A DNA stretch of 32,277 nt, taken from contig JAQUOF010000007.1 of the NCBI GenBank assembly GCA_028717225.1, forward strand, positions 1 through 32,277, in the 5' to 3' direction. Every line of letters begins with the position of its first letter. Position 1 is the stretch's first letter. A program made the translations under genes and the position numbers. Origin of the DNA: Patescibacteria group bacterium. Lineage in GTDB: Bacteria; Patescibacteriota; Patescibacteriia; UBA2591; JAQUPP01. Positions 1,327 through 26,153 of the stretch are shown piece after piece. The notes beneath the pieces were generated by a model. The model was not told the origin of the DNA and ran no database searches. It was given only the letters and a program-made list of their open reading frames with translations.

Positions 1327-2106
1327 TTAAATTGATTGTAAGTACCAATTAATTATTTGCCGGCCGTAAAAAAGAGCAGTAAATGTGCCAATGGCCAAAA
1401 ACGGTCCCAATGGAATCATACTTTTCATTCCTTTCTTTTTTCCGATTAATAAAATCAAACTGACCAAGGTGCCGACAATATATGAAATAAAAATCGCCAC
1501 TGCCAGTTGCGACCAATTTCCCAGAGCCATGCCCATAAAAATACCGATTCTGTAATCGCCTAATCCCACTCCCTTGCCCTTGGTTATCCAATATTGAAGA
1601 AGGAAAAAAAGAACAGCGATGAAAACAGCTAATAATATTTTAATCGCCGAATAACCCAGTAATAAATCCAAAACAAAAATTATCCCGGCTGAAGGCAAAA
1701 GAACAATATCTTCAATCTCAAGATATTTAAAATCATAGACAAAAGTAAAAATTAAAACAGCTGAAATAATCCAATAACGAAAAAGCGAAAGATAAAATAT
1801 GGAATCTAAAATATGAAGACTGGAATCTAAAATTAAAAAAGAAAACACAAAGAGAAGTCCGGTCGCCAACTCAACCATCGGATATTGCCAAGAAATTTTT
1901 TGATGGCAATAACGGCAGCGTCCTTTAAGAAAAATAAAACTCAAGAGAGGAATATTGTCATACCATGCGATTTGATGACCGCAGTCCGGACAAACAGAAC
2001 GTCCGAGGATTGATTTTTTAATATGCAAACGCCAAATTAAGCAATTTAAAAAACTGCCGATTGCCAAGCCAAAAATAAAGCTGAATAACCAATATAAAAA
2101 ATTCAT
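1327..2106 (-). CDS. pilD: Prepilin peptidase / N-methyltransferase (A24)
   Basis: An integral membrane aspartic protease that cleaves the leader of type IV prepilins and methylates the new N-terminus. The 259 residues match the bifunctional family. The N-terminal domain has the zinc-binding pair CPDC (C39, C42) and CRYC (C64, C67). Several membrane segments follow, with the catalytic aspartates in FVYDFKYLEIED (D125) and GLGDYRIG (D184, the GxGD-type motif). It sits directly upstream of two pseudopilin genes, its substrates, and just downstream of a GT2 glycosyltransferase. Confidence 0.95.
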   Translation of the reverse strand: MNFLYWLFSFIFGLAIGSFLNCLIWRLHIKKSILGRSVCPDCGHQIAWYDNIPLLSFIFLKGRCRYCHQKISWQYPMVELATGLLFVFSFLILDSSLHILDSIFYLSLFRYWIISAVLIFTFVYDFKYLEIEDIVLLPSAGIIFVLDLLLGYSAIKILLAVFIAVLFFLLQYWITKGKGVGLGDYRIGIFMGMALGNWSQLAVAIFISYIVGTLVSLILLIGKKKGMKSMIPLGPFLAIGTFTALFYGRQIINWYLQSI

Positions 2107-22949: not shown

Positions 22950-24365
22950 TTAAAACGGCCCGGATTCTTCAATATCGCTGCTGTCGCCTTCCAAATTATC
23001 CAACATTTTTTTGTCTAAATTTTTATAACTGGCAGTTTCCGGTTCAAAATATAATTTAACAATTCCTCCGGCCGGTCCATGACGATGTTTGCCAATATGA
23101 ATTTCCGCAACATTTTTTTCTTCAGGCGGACAAAATTTAATGCTTTTATCCATTCCTTTTCGGTAAATAAACAAAACCACATCAGCATCTTGTTCCAAAC
23201 TGCCGCTTTCTCTTAAATCAGCCAATTTGGGAATAGACGGAGTTCTGGATTCCGTGGCGCGGGAAAGTTGAGAAAGAGCCAAAACCGGAATATTAAGTTC
23301 ACGGGCAATGGCTTTAAGCGCTCGAGAAATTTCTGAAACTTCTTGAACGCGATTTTCAGAACCGCTGGCGCCTTCCATTAATTGTAAATAATCTATAATC
23401 AATAAGCCAAGTCCATGTTCTGATTGTAATCTTCTGGCTTTTGTTCTTATTTCATTCACGCTTGCGGTTGGCGAATCATCGATAAAAATCGGCGTCTCAG
23501 CCAAAACACTGAAAGCTTCGCCTAATTTTTTAAAATCTCCGTCACCGTCTTTGGCAATATTTCCTGTTCTGATTTTCCAAAGATTAACCCCTGCCTGAGC
23601 GCAAATTATTCTATCGCAAATTTGATCTTTTGACATTTCCAAACTAAAAATTCCCACCGGGATTTTATGATAAACCGCCGCGCGTCTGGCAATATCAAGA
23701 GCCAGGGCACTTTTTCCGATAGAAGGTCTAGCCGCCAAAATAATCAGCTCAGATGCTTGAAGCCCGGCCAGAACATTATCCAGATCCGCAAATCCGGTCG
23801 GAACTCCTCTTAATTTTTGATCACCCCGATGCAAAGCATCCATTCTTTCAAAAGCTTCATCAAGAGTATCTTTTAAAGAAACAAAATTTTGTTTTAAAAA
23901 TTTTTGGGAAATATTGAAAAATTTATGTTCAGCCCGATCTAAAACATTTGAGGTGTCAAGATCCTCCTGATAAGCCATTTGATTGACTTCTGTCGTGGCT
24001 CTGATAATCTTTCTTAAGGTTGATTTTTTCTGAACAATCTGAGCATAAGAAACTATATGACTTGAAGTTGGAACGCTGGAAGCCAAGGTGGCCAGATAAC
24101 TTCTTCCTCCCACCATCTCTAATTGTCCTCTTTCTTCCAAGCGATTAACAACGCTTAAAATATCAACAGGCGTATGCTGAGCCCAAACTTCAAGCATTGA
24201 TTCAAAAATTATTTTATTGATATCTTTATAAAAATCTTCGGCATTGATAATATCGGCAATTTTAATAATCGCTTCTTTGTCAATTAAAAGAGAACCGAGA
24301 AGAGCCATTTCGGCTTCAATATTTTGCGGCGGCAGTTTTTCAAACACCGGAGTGATATCTGTCAT
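22950..24365 (-). CDS. dnaB: Replicative DNA helicase DnaB
   Basis: The hexameric helicase that unwinds DNA at the replication fork. The start at 24365 (MTDITPVFEKLPPQNIEAEM) is chosen over the open frame to 24446 because the upstream residues are not conserved-looking and this one begins directly before PPQNIEAEMALLG. The N-terminal DnaB domain is followed by Walker A in AARPSIGKSALALDIA, and Walker B with LLIIDYLQLMEG, then SRATESRTPSIPKLADLRES (arginine-finger region). No intein. 471 residues, a normal length. Confidence 0.96.
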   Translation of the reverse strand: MTDITPVFEKLPPQNIEAEMALLGSLLIDKEAIIKIADIINAEDFYKDINKIIFESMLEVWAQHTPVDILSVVNRLEERGQLEMVGGRSYLATLASSVPTSSHIVSYAQIVQKKSTLRKIIRATTEVNQMAYQEDLDTSNVLDRAEHKFFNISQKFLKQNFVSLKDTLDEAFERMDALHRGDQKLRGVPTGFADLDNVLAGLQASELIILAARPSIGKSALALDIARRAAVYHKIPVGIFSLEMSKDQICDRIICAQAGVNLWKIRTGNIAKDGDGDFKKLGEAFSVLAETPIFIDDSPTASVNEIRTKARRLQSEHGLGLLIIDYLQLMEGASGSENRVQEVSEISRALKAIARELNIPVLALSQLSRATESRTPSIPKLADLRESGSLEQDADVVLFIYRKGMDKSIKFCPPEEKNVAEIHIGKHRHGPAGGIVKLYFEPETASYKNLDKKMLDNLEGDSSDIEESGPF

Positions 24366-24498
24366 AAAAATGAGTTTTAGGACTTTACAAATTATTTTTC
24401 TATTGTATAATAATTGAATAATTAATTCAAGTTTTTTTCTGCACATTTTATTAACATTTGAGGAACATCTAAAAATGTAAAATAAAAGTTTAAAATCT

Positions 24499-24573
24499 GC
24501 CCCTATAGCTCAACTCCGACGTCTTAAGAGTCGGAGTCCCGACCTCTAAAATAGAACGTCGGGGTGAGTAGAG
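24499..24573 (+). pseudogene. Remnant tRNA-Lys head with hairpins (unit A)
   Basis: GCCCCTATAGCTCAA (24499-24513) equals the first 15 nt of the intact tRNA-Lys at 24941. It breaks into the hairpin CTCCGAC/GTCGGAG (24514-24536) and then CCCGAC/GTCGGG (24538-24563). The sequence that follows (24574 onward) matches the 3' end of the GIY-YIG gene, including codons NLIKK-stop. Unit A therefore looks like a copy of the next unit with its nuclease gene largely deleted. Confidence 0.6.
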
Positions 24574-24626
24574 AATTTAATTAAAAAATAGTCCCGTCAC
24601 TTTTGCCCCTATAGCTCAATGGTAGA
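24574..24626 (+). repeat. 53-nt direct repeat, left copy
   Basis: Matches 24910-24962 with two mismatches (offset 336). It covers the last GIY-YIG codons (NLIKK, here ending TAG), the spacer TCCCGTCACTTTT, and the first 22 nt of tRNA-Lys (GCCCCTATAGCTCAATGGTA plus GA). Confidence 0.9.
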
Positions 24627-24660
24627 TCCGCCAGCTGGCGGACATTTAAGCAGTTGATAT
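24605..24660 (+). pseudogene. Truncated tRNA-Lys (unit B) carrying the 16-bp palindrome
   Basis: It follows tRNA-Lys up to GGTAGA. GCAGCTGC is then replaced by TCCGCCAGCTGGCGGA (24627-24642). Identity resumes at TTTAAGCAGTTGATAT (24645-24660) and stops abruptly at the start of the T-arm. The anticodon loop reads CATTTAA, so U33 is lost. The 3' half is missing and the GIY-YIG start codon lies 10 nt further on. Confidence 0.8.
24627..24642. repeat. Palindrome TCCGCCAGCTGGCGGA, copy 2
   Basis: Identical to 21863-21878 and 25057-25072. It occupies the place of the GCAGCTGC palindrome of intact tRNA-Lys. Confidence 0.9.
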
Positions 24661-24669
24661 TACAAGATA

Positions 24670-24927
24670 ATGTTTTACGTATATACTATTTATAATTCCA
24701 TTCGCGATAAAATCTATATAGGACAAACGGCTAATCTAGATGAAAGATTAAAGAGGCATAATAAAATATCAAAAAATAAATCTACATCATTCACCAGTAA
24801 AAATTCGGGAAATTGGAAATTAATATATAAAGAAGAGTTTAAAACCAGACAAGAAGCTATAAAAAGAGAAAAAGAACTGAAAAGTTTTCAAGGAAGAAAA
24901 TTTATTAAAAACTTAATTAAAAAATAA
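24670..24927 (+). CDS. Small GIY-YIG nuclease-domain protein
   Basis: An 85-residue single-domain protein: MFYVYTIYNSIRDKIYIGQT carries the GIY (VYT) and YIG motifs, NLDERLKRHN carries the catalytic Arg, and REKELKSFQGRKFIKNLIKK carries the conserved Glu and end. Related small proteins (UvrC N-terminal / YhbQ type) are frequent in Parcubacteria; the domain hydrolyses DNA in homing nucleases and UvrC. It has no DNA-binding extension. It sits between a truncated and an intact tRNA-Lys inside a direct repeat, which suggests it helped create or spread this structure. No clear Shine-Dalgarno precedes the ATG. Confidence 0.88.
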   Translation: MFYVYTIYNSIRDKIYIGQTANLDERLKRHNKISKNKSTSFTSKNSGNWKLIYKEEFKTRQEAIKREKELKSFQGRKFIKNLIKK

Positions 24928-24962
24928 TCCCGTCACTTTTGCCCCTATAGCTCAATGGTAGA
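24910..24962 (+). repeat. 53-nt direct repeat, right copy
   Basis: The partner of 24574-24626. It spans the GIY-YIG gene end and the head of the intact tRNA-Lys. Confidence 0.9.
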
Positions 24963-25032
24963 GCAGCTGCCTTTTAAGCAGTTGATATAGGTCCGATTCC
25001 TATTGGGGGTATAAGTGGCAGGATTATTTTTT
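24919..25032. repeat. Inverted repeat enclosing tRNA-Lys
   Basis: AAAAAATAATCC (24919-24930) is the exact complement of GGATTATTTTTT (25021-25032), and CACTT (24934-24938) of AAGTG (25013-25017). Between them CGT faces GCA with one mismatch and one wobble. With the acceptor stem this gives a nearly continuous helix enclosing the tRNA, ending in a T-run. It could be a pre-tRNA processing or termination structure, or the ends of an inserted element. Confidence 0.7.
24941..25011 (+). tRNA. tRNA-Lys (TTT), intact copy
   Basis: Acceptor GCCCCTA/TGGGGGT (with a G1-T72 wobble), D-arm GCTC-AATGGTA-GAGC, anticodon arm GCTGC-CTTTTAA-GCAGT (anticodon TTT), T-arm ATAGG-TCCGATT-CCTAT, discriminator A. 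Position 55 is C rather than T. CCA is not encoded. It is the only complete copy among three or four tRNA-Lys-derived sequences here. Confidence 0.9.
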
Positions 25033-25040
25033 ATAATTTC

Positions 25041-25113
25041 ATGGCTCAATGGTAGATCCGCCAGCTGGCGGACTTTTAAGCAGTTGATATAGGTTCGATT
25101 CCTATTGGGGGTA
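25041..25113 (+). pseudogene. tRNA-Lys-like sequence with palindrome, 5' end lost (unit C)
   Basis: The D-arm GCTCAATGGTAGA, the palindrome TCCGCCAGCTGGCGGA (25057-25072) in place of GCAGCTGC, then CTTTTAAGCAGTTGATATAG and a T-arm with the standard TTCGATT, and an acceptor 3' strand TGGGGGTA. The 5' acceptor strand (about TAATTTC) does not pair with it, so a normal tRNA cannot form. Confidence 0.8.
25057..25072. repeat. Palindrome TCCGCCAGCTGGCGGA, copy 3
   Basis: Identical to the copies at 21863 and 24627. Confidence 0.9.
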
Positions 25114-25119
25114 TAAAAT

Positions 25120-25157
25120 AAAAAATCACAGAACTTTGTCTGTGATTTTTTATTTTT
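25120..25157 (+). terminator. Terminator after the tRNA-Lys locus
   Basis: AAAAATCACAGA, loop ACTTTG, TCTGTGATTTTT, then TATTTTT. A perfect 12-bp stem with A-run and T-run, so it could work in both directions. Confidence 0.85.
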
Positions 25158-25172
25158 GATAATCAATTAAAA

Positions 25173-25206
25173 AAGGGCAGGATCCATTATATGAATTCCT
25201 GCCCTT
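25173..25206 (-). terminator. Terminator of the 25215-26153 gene
   Basis: The minus strand reads AAGGGCAGGA, a loop, TCCTGCCCTT, then TTTT. It follows the stop codon by 8 bp. Confidence 0.9.
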
Positions 25207-25214
25207 AATATAAT

Positions 25215-26153
25215 TTATAATTCTACTCTTGGTAAAAATCCGGAAGCAGGAGCCCAATCCTTACAATCTCTATTGAAATTATCCGTCTCGTGAGTACCAA
25301 GTTTAATCCCACCAAGGAAACTAAAAGCCAATACATACAATTCCCAGCCCCAAATTTCTTGCGGACGGAATTCATCACCGGCACAGTCTATATTCAGACA
25401 CCCCTCACTTATCCTTTCAATATGGGTTAAAAGAATTGCGATGATTTCCGGCAACCCAAGGGCAAATTCATTATTCTTGCTAATCAAACTTTTTCTAAAT
25501 TCTCTAACCGTAATATCTTGGTAGAGAAATCCGGTCTGAGCAGGAATAATCCAAATGCTTAATTCTTTCTGTATCTCTGCAATTCTTTCAAGAGCATCTT
25601 TTGTTTTATCTGAACGCCTCAAGTGATTCGGTGTAATTTCCTTTCTTCTATAATTTTGAAAATCCTGAGGAATACCAGTATTCGTTGGTATTAGAGAAAG
25701 TAGAAATTTTACCGCACAATAATATTGTCTATCCAGTTCCGCAATCTTGGGAAATAACGCTTGTATTGATGGAATGGCAAACCATCCTTCGGCCCCATTA
25801 GGAAGCTGGAGAGTCGGAAGCACTTCTTTTATGTATTCAAAAGTAGGACCTGGATTAAGACGTTTGAAAATCTTCGCGAGAATTTCAACTTGCCGTTCAA
25901 TCGGCTTCGGCCCTGTATATGGAAATCCTTTTGGCGGAAGTATTAAATTAACCTTTTTCTCTTCTTTTATCACCGCCACTATTGCCTCTGCCACAATTTC
26001 ATCGGCCTTGGAATATTTCCTAAAAATCGCCTCCAATTCCTCTAAAACCTTAGGATTTTGCATTATTATTCCAAATTGCATCGGTGTAAGTTCCAATTTA
26101 TTGCATATTCTCTCAACAACATCAATCCACCAACTTTGCGATAAAATGTTCAT
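25215..26153 (-). CDS. CPR conserved hypothetical protein (WIIPAQ...CAGDE family)
   Basis: 312 residues from the ATG at 26153 (MNILSQSWWIDVVERICNKL), chosen because AAGGGGG lies just upstream. The frame itself opens 12 codons earlier. Conserved-looking blocks are GWFAIPSIQALFP, YRRKEITPNHLRRS, LSIWIIPAQTGFLY, NEFALGLPEIIAILLTH, CLNIDCAGDEFRP and ASGFLPRVEL. From memory these match a hypothetical family repeated in Parcubacteria genomes and without known function. Soluble, no signal peptide. Monocistronic, with a near-consensus promoter back to back with that of the 26316 gene. Confidence 0.75.
   Translation of the reverse strand: MNILSQSWWIDVVERICNKLELTPMQFGIIMQNPKVLEELEAIFRKYSKADEIVAEAIVAVIKEEKKVNLILPPKGFPYTGPKPIERQVEILAKIFKRLNPGPTFEYIKEVLPTLQLPNGAEGWFAIPSIQALFPKIAELDRQYYCAVKFLLSLIPTNTGIPQDFQNYRRKEITPNHLRRSDKTKDALERIAEIQKELSIWIIPAQTGFLYQDITVREFRKSLISKNNEFALGLPEIIAILLTHIERISEGCLNIDCAGDEFRPQEIWGWELYVLAFSFLGGIKLGTHETDNFNRDCKDWAPASGFLPRVEL

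Follow-up and report, generated by a model that had tools for sequence, protein, structure and literature searches.

The window, by which we mean the whole 32,277-nt stretch of DNA analysed here (positions 1 to 32,277 of contig JAQUOF010000007.1, assembly GCA_028717225.1, Patescibacteria group bacterium), contains a small open reading frame encoding a GIY-YIG nuclease and, immediately downstream, an intact tRNA-Lys, and these lie together between two fragments of a broken tRNA-Lys, a head on the left and a tail on the right. Both fragments are interrupted at the same place by the same 16-bp palindrome, TCCGCCAGCTGGCGGA, while a further, older head interrupted by a different double hairpin lies to the left (together 24499-24565). 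The tail runs into the terminator-like hairpin that directly follows the tRNA in the genome of a congener (the sister genome, G001), and so the tail marks the ancestral gene and the tRNA now in use lies inside the insert. The features of the locus are collected in Table 1; in what follows, genomes are denoted by G numbers, the genome of the window being G000, and the individual loci taken from them by L numbers.

Table 1. Features of the tRNA-Lys locus and of one further tRNA gene in the window, with the basis for each
Position	Strand	Feature	Basis
24499..24513	+	Orphan tRNA-Lys head of an older element (tRNA nt 1-15)	Repeat analysis; same head with same hairpin type at the orthologous place in the sister genome (L034)
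24514..24565	+	Double hairpin CTCCGAC..GTCGGAG / CCCGAC..GTCGGGG interrupting the older head	Sequence; same type as in Arg elements L032 and L108 and Lys element L101
24605..24660	+	Orphan head of the broken resident tRNA-Lys (tRNA nt 1-23 and 34-49)	Repeat analysis and comparison with the intact tRNA
24627..24642	+	Palindrome TCCGCCAGCTGGCGGA inside the orphan head	Inverted-repeat analysis; same place in Lys elements of other genera
24670..24927	+	GIY-YIG nuclease ORF, 85 aa	Pfam GIY-YIG (PF01541), E=8e-17; active-site residues conserved; dN/dS 0.10-0.21 against Lys homologues
24918..24945	+	Left arm of the inverted repeat enclosing the intact tRNA (clamp)	Inverted-repeat analysis
24941..25011	+	Intact tRNA-Lys(UUU) carried by the element; the only tRNA-Lys(UUU) found in this genome	ARAGORN (24940-25012); Rfam tRNA, 71.2 bits
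25006..25033	+	Right arm of the clamp	Inverted-repeat analysis
25041..25113	+	Orphan tail of the broken resident tRNA-Lys (tRNA nt 11-23 and 32-73)	50-nt repeat, 96%; Rfam 23.5 bits, below the tRNA cut-off of 29
25057..25072	+	Same palindrome inside the orphan tail	Inverted-repeat analysis
25115..25156	+	Terminator-like hairpin of the ancestral tRNA-Lys gene	Inverted-repeat analysis; position in the sister genome
29277..29352	+	tRNA-Asn, unoccupied allele of a site broken and replaced in the sister genome	ARAGORN; comparison with the sister genome

What a first-pass annotation had observed at this locus, namely a truncated tRNA-Lys, a GIY-YIG gene, an intact tRNA-Lys, a direct repeat and a further head followed by hairpins, is confirmed in our analysis, although it had missed the tail. 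The direct repeat is 58 nt long with 93% identity (24574-24631 and 24910-24967). One detail is not secured, that the upstream copy of this repeat holds the end of a second nuclease gene, since in the sister genome a similar flank precedes the older head without any nuclease.

Recurrence of the arrangement and its orphan tRNA halves

The same nested layout is found at many different tRNA genes, both in ultra-small bacteria and in Bacteroidota. Eight PF01541 matches lie in the 0.86-Mb genome of the window and seventeen in a congener. Of 106 distinct small GIY-YIG ORFs in loci taken from related genomes, 50 have a same-strand tRNA within 400 bp and one (L107) has only an opposite-strand tRNA; 34 have a same-strand tRNA starting -15 to +130 bp from the stop codon, where roughly 0.4 would be expected at the measured density of about 46 tRNAs per 0.85 Mb. 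The association was measured from stretches found by searching and then retrieved, and it meets one of the checks that the first-pass annotation had set for itself, that GIY-YIG ORFs elsewhere should show an association with tRNA genes or repeats. The targets include Lys, Arg, Leu, Ser, Met, Gln, Cys, Gly, Trp, Asn, Glu, Ala, Pro, Tyr, Phe and Asp, and in several cases the ORF ends at a stop codon inside the tRNA.

The signature of these loci is the orphan half. In 57 of 75 ORF-tRNA pairs fragments of that same tRNA remain, while 18 show no detectable orphan; a fragment lies on the left in 51 pairs and on the right in 26, against about 7% each when another isotype is used as query. Left pieces are mostly 5' (72 of 87) and right pieces mostly 3' (36 of 40; Fisher p=2e-15). 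The intact tRNA may follow the ORF (53 pairs) or precede it (22 pairs). The cleanest case, L080, consists of a tRNA-Ala head (nt 1-34), then TCCCGAT, the ORF, an intact tRNA-Ala and ATCGGGA, and then a tRNA-Ala tail (nt 35-74), so that the split falls inside the anticodon. Gln elements of two families (L099 and L123) are split at the same 34|35 position and share a covarying double hairpin, and the insertion sites are likewise constant in the Lys and Asn lineages. Several serine tRNAs of the sister genome (L012, L028 and L029) are followed by hairpin-containing orphan 3' tails of the same tRNA, which suggests repeated insertion in the T loop.

Orphans carry GC-rich hairpins at positions that are fixed within a lineage. 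In Lys elements of many genera the palindrome lies at the same tRNA position, after GGTAGA, with paired substitutions in L152 and L153, and for this reason it is unlikely to be random repeat junk. The inverted-repeat clamp, by contrast, is not a universal feature: a comparison of 75 element tRNAs with 106 control tRNAs gave p=0.40, and two of the top controls proved to be element loci retrieved a second time. It is instead confined to loci with both orphans, being present in 8 of 21 of these and in none of 54 others (p=1.2e-5); here, the L080 clamp was counted by eye because the scan does not allow for its encoded CCA, and L002 was placed by eye among the loci with both orphans. For the window, the predicted acceptor-stem probability is 0.97 natively, 0.97 without the palindromes, 0.67 on average with the clamp shuffled, and 0.00 in all 12 trials with both changed. 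This suggests that both features protect the working tRNA from its broken copies, but L080 and L005 do not follow, and folding insulation is not shown as a general rule. Finally, there are tandem arrays of hairpin-tagged heads without ORFs between them, with four Lys heads in L153 and several Gln heads in L168, which resemble miniature non-autonomous units.

Filled and empty sites, and nuclease lineages

The first-pass annotation had also proposed that close relatives be compared for empty sites, and such sites are present at four loci in the two congeners. At tRNA-Ala(CGC), G001 has the plain resident gene, with flanks 87-90% identical to the filled site in G000. In G000 that resident is reduced to GGGCCTATA on the left and GACGACAGTTC[hairpin]GATTCTGCCTAGGTCCA on the right, and between them lie a different tRNA-Ala(CGC) and the nuclease. 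This carried tRNA is 79% identical to the sister's resident, but 89% identical to a tRNA in another family (G021), where a tail of the resident type also follows it. At tRNA-Met, G000 is empty and G001 carries two tandem 323-bp units. At tRNA-Asn it is the window's own gene that is unoccupied, while in G001 (L219, G001:C1:277300-278800) the gene is split, hairpin-tagged and replaced by a foreign tRNA-Asn in an inverted-repeat clamp; the replacement is 92% identical to a tRNA-Asn in G012, where a similar hairpin-tagged head precedes it. No nuclease ORF remains at this Asn site, and a similar ORF-less replacement lies in G012 (L239). At both Ala and Asn the replacement tRNA is nearer to tRNAs of other families, where tRNA fragments of the resident type also flank it, than to the resident. 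At tRNA-Lys, G001 lacks the nuclease and the palindromic orphans but shares the older hairpin-broken head; it also has an extra small gene of about 70-75 codons (L034, about 1700-1910, minus strand) between dnaB and the tRNA-Lys locus that is absent from the window. A further comparison, of G012 against G018 at Arg(CCT), gave no clear synteny. Among the tRNAs compared between the two sister genomes, Ala (79%), Asn (74-82%) and Met (93%), and slightly Lys (97%), are the diverged ones, and all others are 96-100% identical.

Nuclease proteins cluster by target across families, albeit in a tree based on a short alignment and a quick method. The clusters comprise Lys (L003, L085 and L089, with Asn L093; support 99), Gln (L099 and L123), Trp (L084 and L124), and Arg (L032 and L108) with Lys L101. 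The association with tRNA genes is concentrated in one of two major groups of the tree, the other, of 21 rows, having only three associated members. The window's older head has the hairpins of the Arg/Lys cluster, and so this locus was probably visited by two nuclease lineages. A search of 381 genomes by protein similarity alone returned homologues that nearly all abut tRNA genes, the closest mainly at tRNA-Lys, then Asn and Ser, and mostly with orphans; the named genomes include a Saccharibacteria MAG and Bacteroidota such as Indibacter alkaliphilus LW1, Cecembia lonarensis LW9 and Agriterribacter humi YJ03. The nuclease, which has a known homing-endonuclease fold with an intact active site, is maintained: Y5, Y16, G18, R26, H30 and K71 are invariant, and E67 is present in 99%, of 76 tRNA-linked homologues, and dN/dS is 0.05-0.21 in the pairs that could be computed.

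A proposed homing-type element and its alternatives

In explaining these observations, we propose that the locus is one of a large group of small mobile elements made of a GIY-YIG nuclease gene plus a complete tRNA gene, which inserts into a resident tRNA gene, often in the anticodon loop and elsewhere in the D or T loop. The resident would be left as an orphan head on one side and, where it survives, an orphan tail on the other, while the element's own tRNA takes over. Our data demonstrate the nested insertion into resident tRNA genes, the polymorphism of orthologous sites between congeners, the replacement of a resident by a different tRNA of the same anticodon, the match of nuclease lineage to target across families, and the conservation of the nuclease under purifying selection. 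The remainder is inference: that the enzyme cuts the unoccupied tRNA gene (cleavage was not assayed), that repair then copies the element in, that the carried tRNA makes this survivable, that the hairpins and the clamp keep the orphan halves from mispairing with the new tRNA, and that ORF-less copies are decayed or were moved in trans. We hold this reading with reasonable, but not complete, confidence. At many loci the carried tRNA equals the orphan over its whole length (L084, L124 and L137), and the model does not say why the nuclease would then spare it, nor how tandem units arise; the absence of a nuclease ORF from the Asn site in G001, and of orphans from some pairs, also count against it.

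The interpretation offered by the first-pass annotation, of a small GIY-YIG element that targets tRNA-Lys and restores a complete tRNA at its right end in the manner of integrative elements at att sites, but without an integrase, is supported in part. A small GIY-YIG element is indeed associated with tRNA-Lys, and with many other tRNA genes; it leaves a complete tRNA, and has no integrase. However, the tRNA is not restored as att-site elements do it, for the insert carries a whole tRNA gene, before or after the ORF, and at some loci the carried tRNA differs in sequence from the resident. The two tandem units that it described, one with the nuclease gene deleted, are better read as two element generations of different nuclease lineages.

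Other explanations seem less likely. Local duplication and decay of tRNA genes, with GIY-YIG genes as passengers that tolerate such intergenic places, has some support in the tandem arrays at Met, in L153 and in L168, and in the several orphans identical to the intact copy. Yet duplication does not nest an intact tRNA between the head and tail of another (L080, L123), does not put a 79%-identical tRNA with the same anticodon inside the resident, and does not make nuclease clades follow the tRNA isotype across families; we consider it unlikely, and it is already contradicted at the Ala and Asn loci. Slightly less improbable, though still doubtful, is that the protein acts on hairpin or cruciform DNA in the manner of a structure-specific nuclease and moves hairpin-flanked DNA, tRNA genes being favoured because they fold into cruciforms, so that target choice is by shape and not sequence. 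The hairpins of the orphans and the inverted repeats that flank relatives of the same protein family away from tRNA genes agree with this, and the only solved relative found by sequence is an uncharacterised UPF0213 protein; against it, clades tied to one isotype across families argue for sequence recognition, and the hairpins differ between lineages.

A host function, in which the orphan head is a tRNA-like leader that controls the nuclease and both form an operon for tRNA quality control, is very unlikely. The head does lie in the presumed 5' leader of the ORF at 51 of 75 pairs, with conserved, covarying hairpins, but presence and absence differ between congeners, orphan tails lie on the far side, and very many isotypes are involved. 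An assembly artefact of repetitive tRNA sequence can be all but dismissed; many genomes are metagenome assemblies and two loci (L089 and L168) contain runs of N, but the same layout occurs in many independent genomes and in the named isolates of Indibacter, Cecembia and Agriterribacter.

Precedents and related insertions

The closest precedent comes from the mobile endonuclease ORFs (mORFs) in atp6, atp9, cox2 and nad3 of fungal mitochondria (Allomyces, Glomus; PMC3630166), in which a homing-type endonuclease ORF, of the GIY-YIG kind in atp9, is inserted in an essential gene and carries a foreign replacement for the part it displaces, the native part staying behind as an orphan that matches the close relative better than the insert does. 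There, a C-terminal part of a protein gene is replaced; here, it is a whole tRNA gene, in bacteria, with orphans on both sides, hairpin-tagged orphans and a stem clamp, and the nuclease is only about 85 aa. Literature searches for GIY-YIG with tRNA genes in bacteria found no description of this arrangement, which is not proof of absence given that bioRxiv and most subscription journals lay outside them. Group I introns with homing endonucleases are also nuclease-bearing insertions in structural RNA genes, and those in bacterial tRNA genes commonly sit in the anticodon loop. However, a permissive Rfam scan of 24300-25300 found no intron family, the RNA need not be spliced because an intact tRNA is carried, and the nucleases studied in CPR rRNA insertions are mainly LAGLIDADG in rRNA genes (PMC11270868). 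Integrative elements that use tyrosine recombinases at tRNA att sites similarly target tRNA genes and leave a functional tRNA, but in the insert of about 0.4 kb the only ORF is that of the GIY-YIG nuclease, with no integrase gene of either the tyrosine or the serine recombinase type, and the tRNA is a complete internal gene, not a 3' end restored by an att repeat.

The logic also resembles that of engineered cleave-and-rescue or home-and-rescue drives (PMC7951863, PMC7968924), which destroy an essential gene and supply a working replacement in the same cassette. These are synthetic, nuclease-programmed and use recoded rescue genes, while the present case is natural; a destroyed resident and a working rescue copy do occur in one cassette, but whether the rescue copy is altered so as to be spared is left undecided by our comparisons, since the carried tRNA differs from the sister alleles at Ala, Asn, Met and Lys but is identical to the orphan at other loci. 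It is possible, though we put it forward only tentatively, that this is a natural cleave-and-rescue system in bacteria, in which the nuclease destroys unoccupied copies of an essential tRNA gene while the element's own tRNA is spared and keeps the cell alive, so that losing the element is lethal and it spreads between lineages, replacing tRNA genes with foreign ones as it goes. Elements of the kind we propose would explain why tiny GIY-YIG genes are so numerous in reduced Patescibacteria genomes, would show that essential tRNA genes are turned over by selfish elements, and would provide a natural counterpart to the engineered drives. They also warn that tRNA phylogenies and the annotation of split or pseudo tRNA genes in these groups are shaped by such replacements, and the cultured Bacteroidota that carry such loci bring the proposal within reach of experiment.

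The small GIY-YIG nucleases of the UPF0213 kind (PDB 1ZG2) have the same catalytic domain, but 1ZG2 has no known target, and most of the 21-member group in the tree that is not tRNA-linked probably corresponds better to it. Away from tRNA genes, GIY-YIG ORFs (L006, L007, L010, L019, L022, L024 and L031) are flanked by inverted repeats of 13-20 bp, and at murC (L024), grpE (L010) and another gene (L022) one arm lies at or in the start of the downstream gene. L006 and L019, and L007 and L031, share outer flanks (GCAACAAAACCTTTACC) but have different arms, and this is possibly a second insertion mode of the same nuclease family. In the group without tRNA links, ORFs at L122, L102 and L083 have copies of GC-rich hairpins (CCCGCC..GGCGGG) on both sides, in L122 as direct repeats, which hints at a link between these nucleases and REP-like hairpin repeats.
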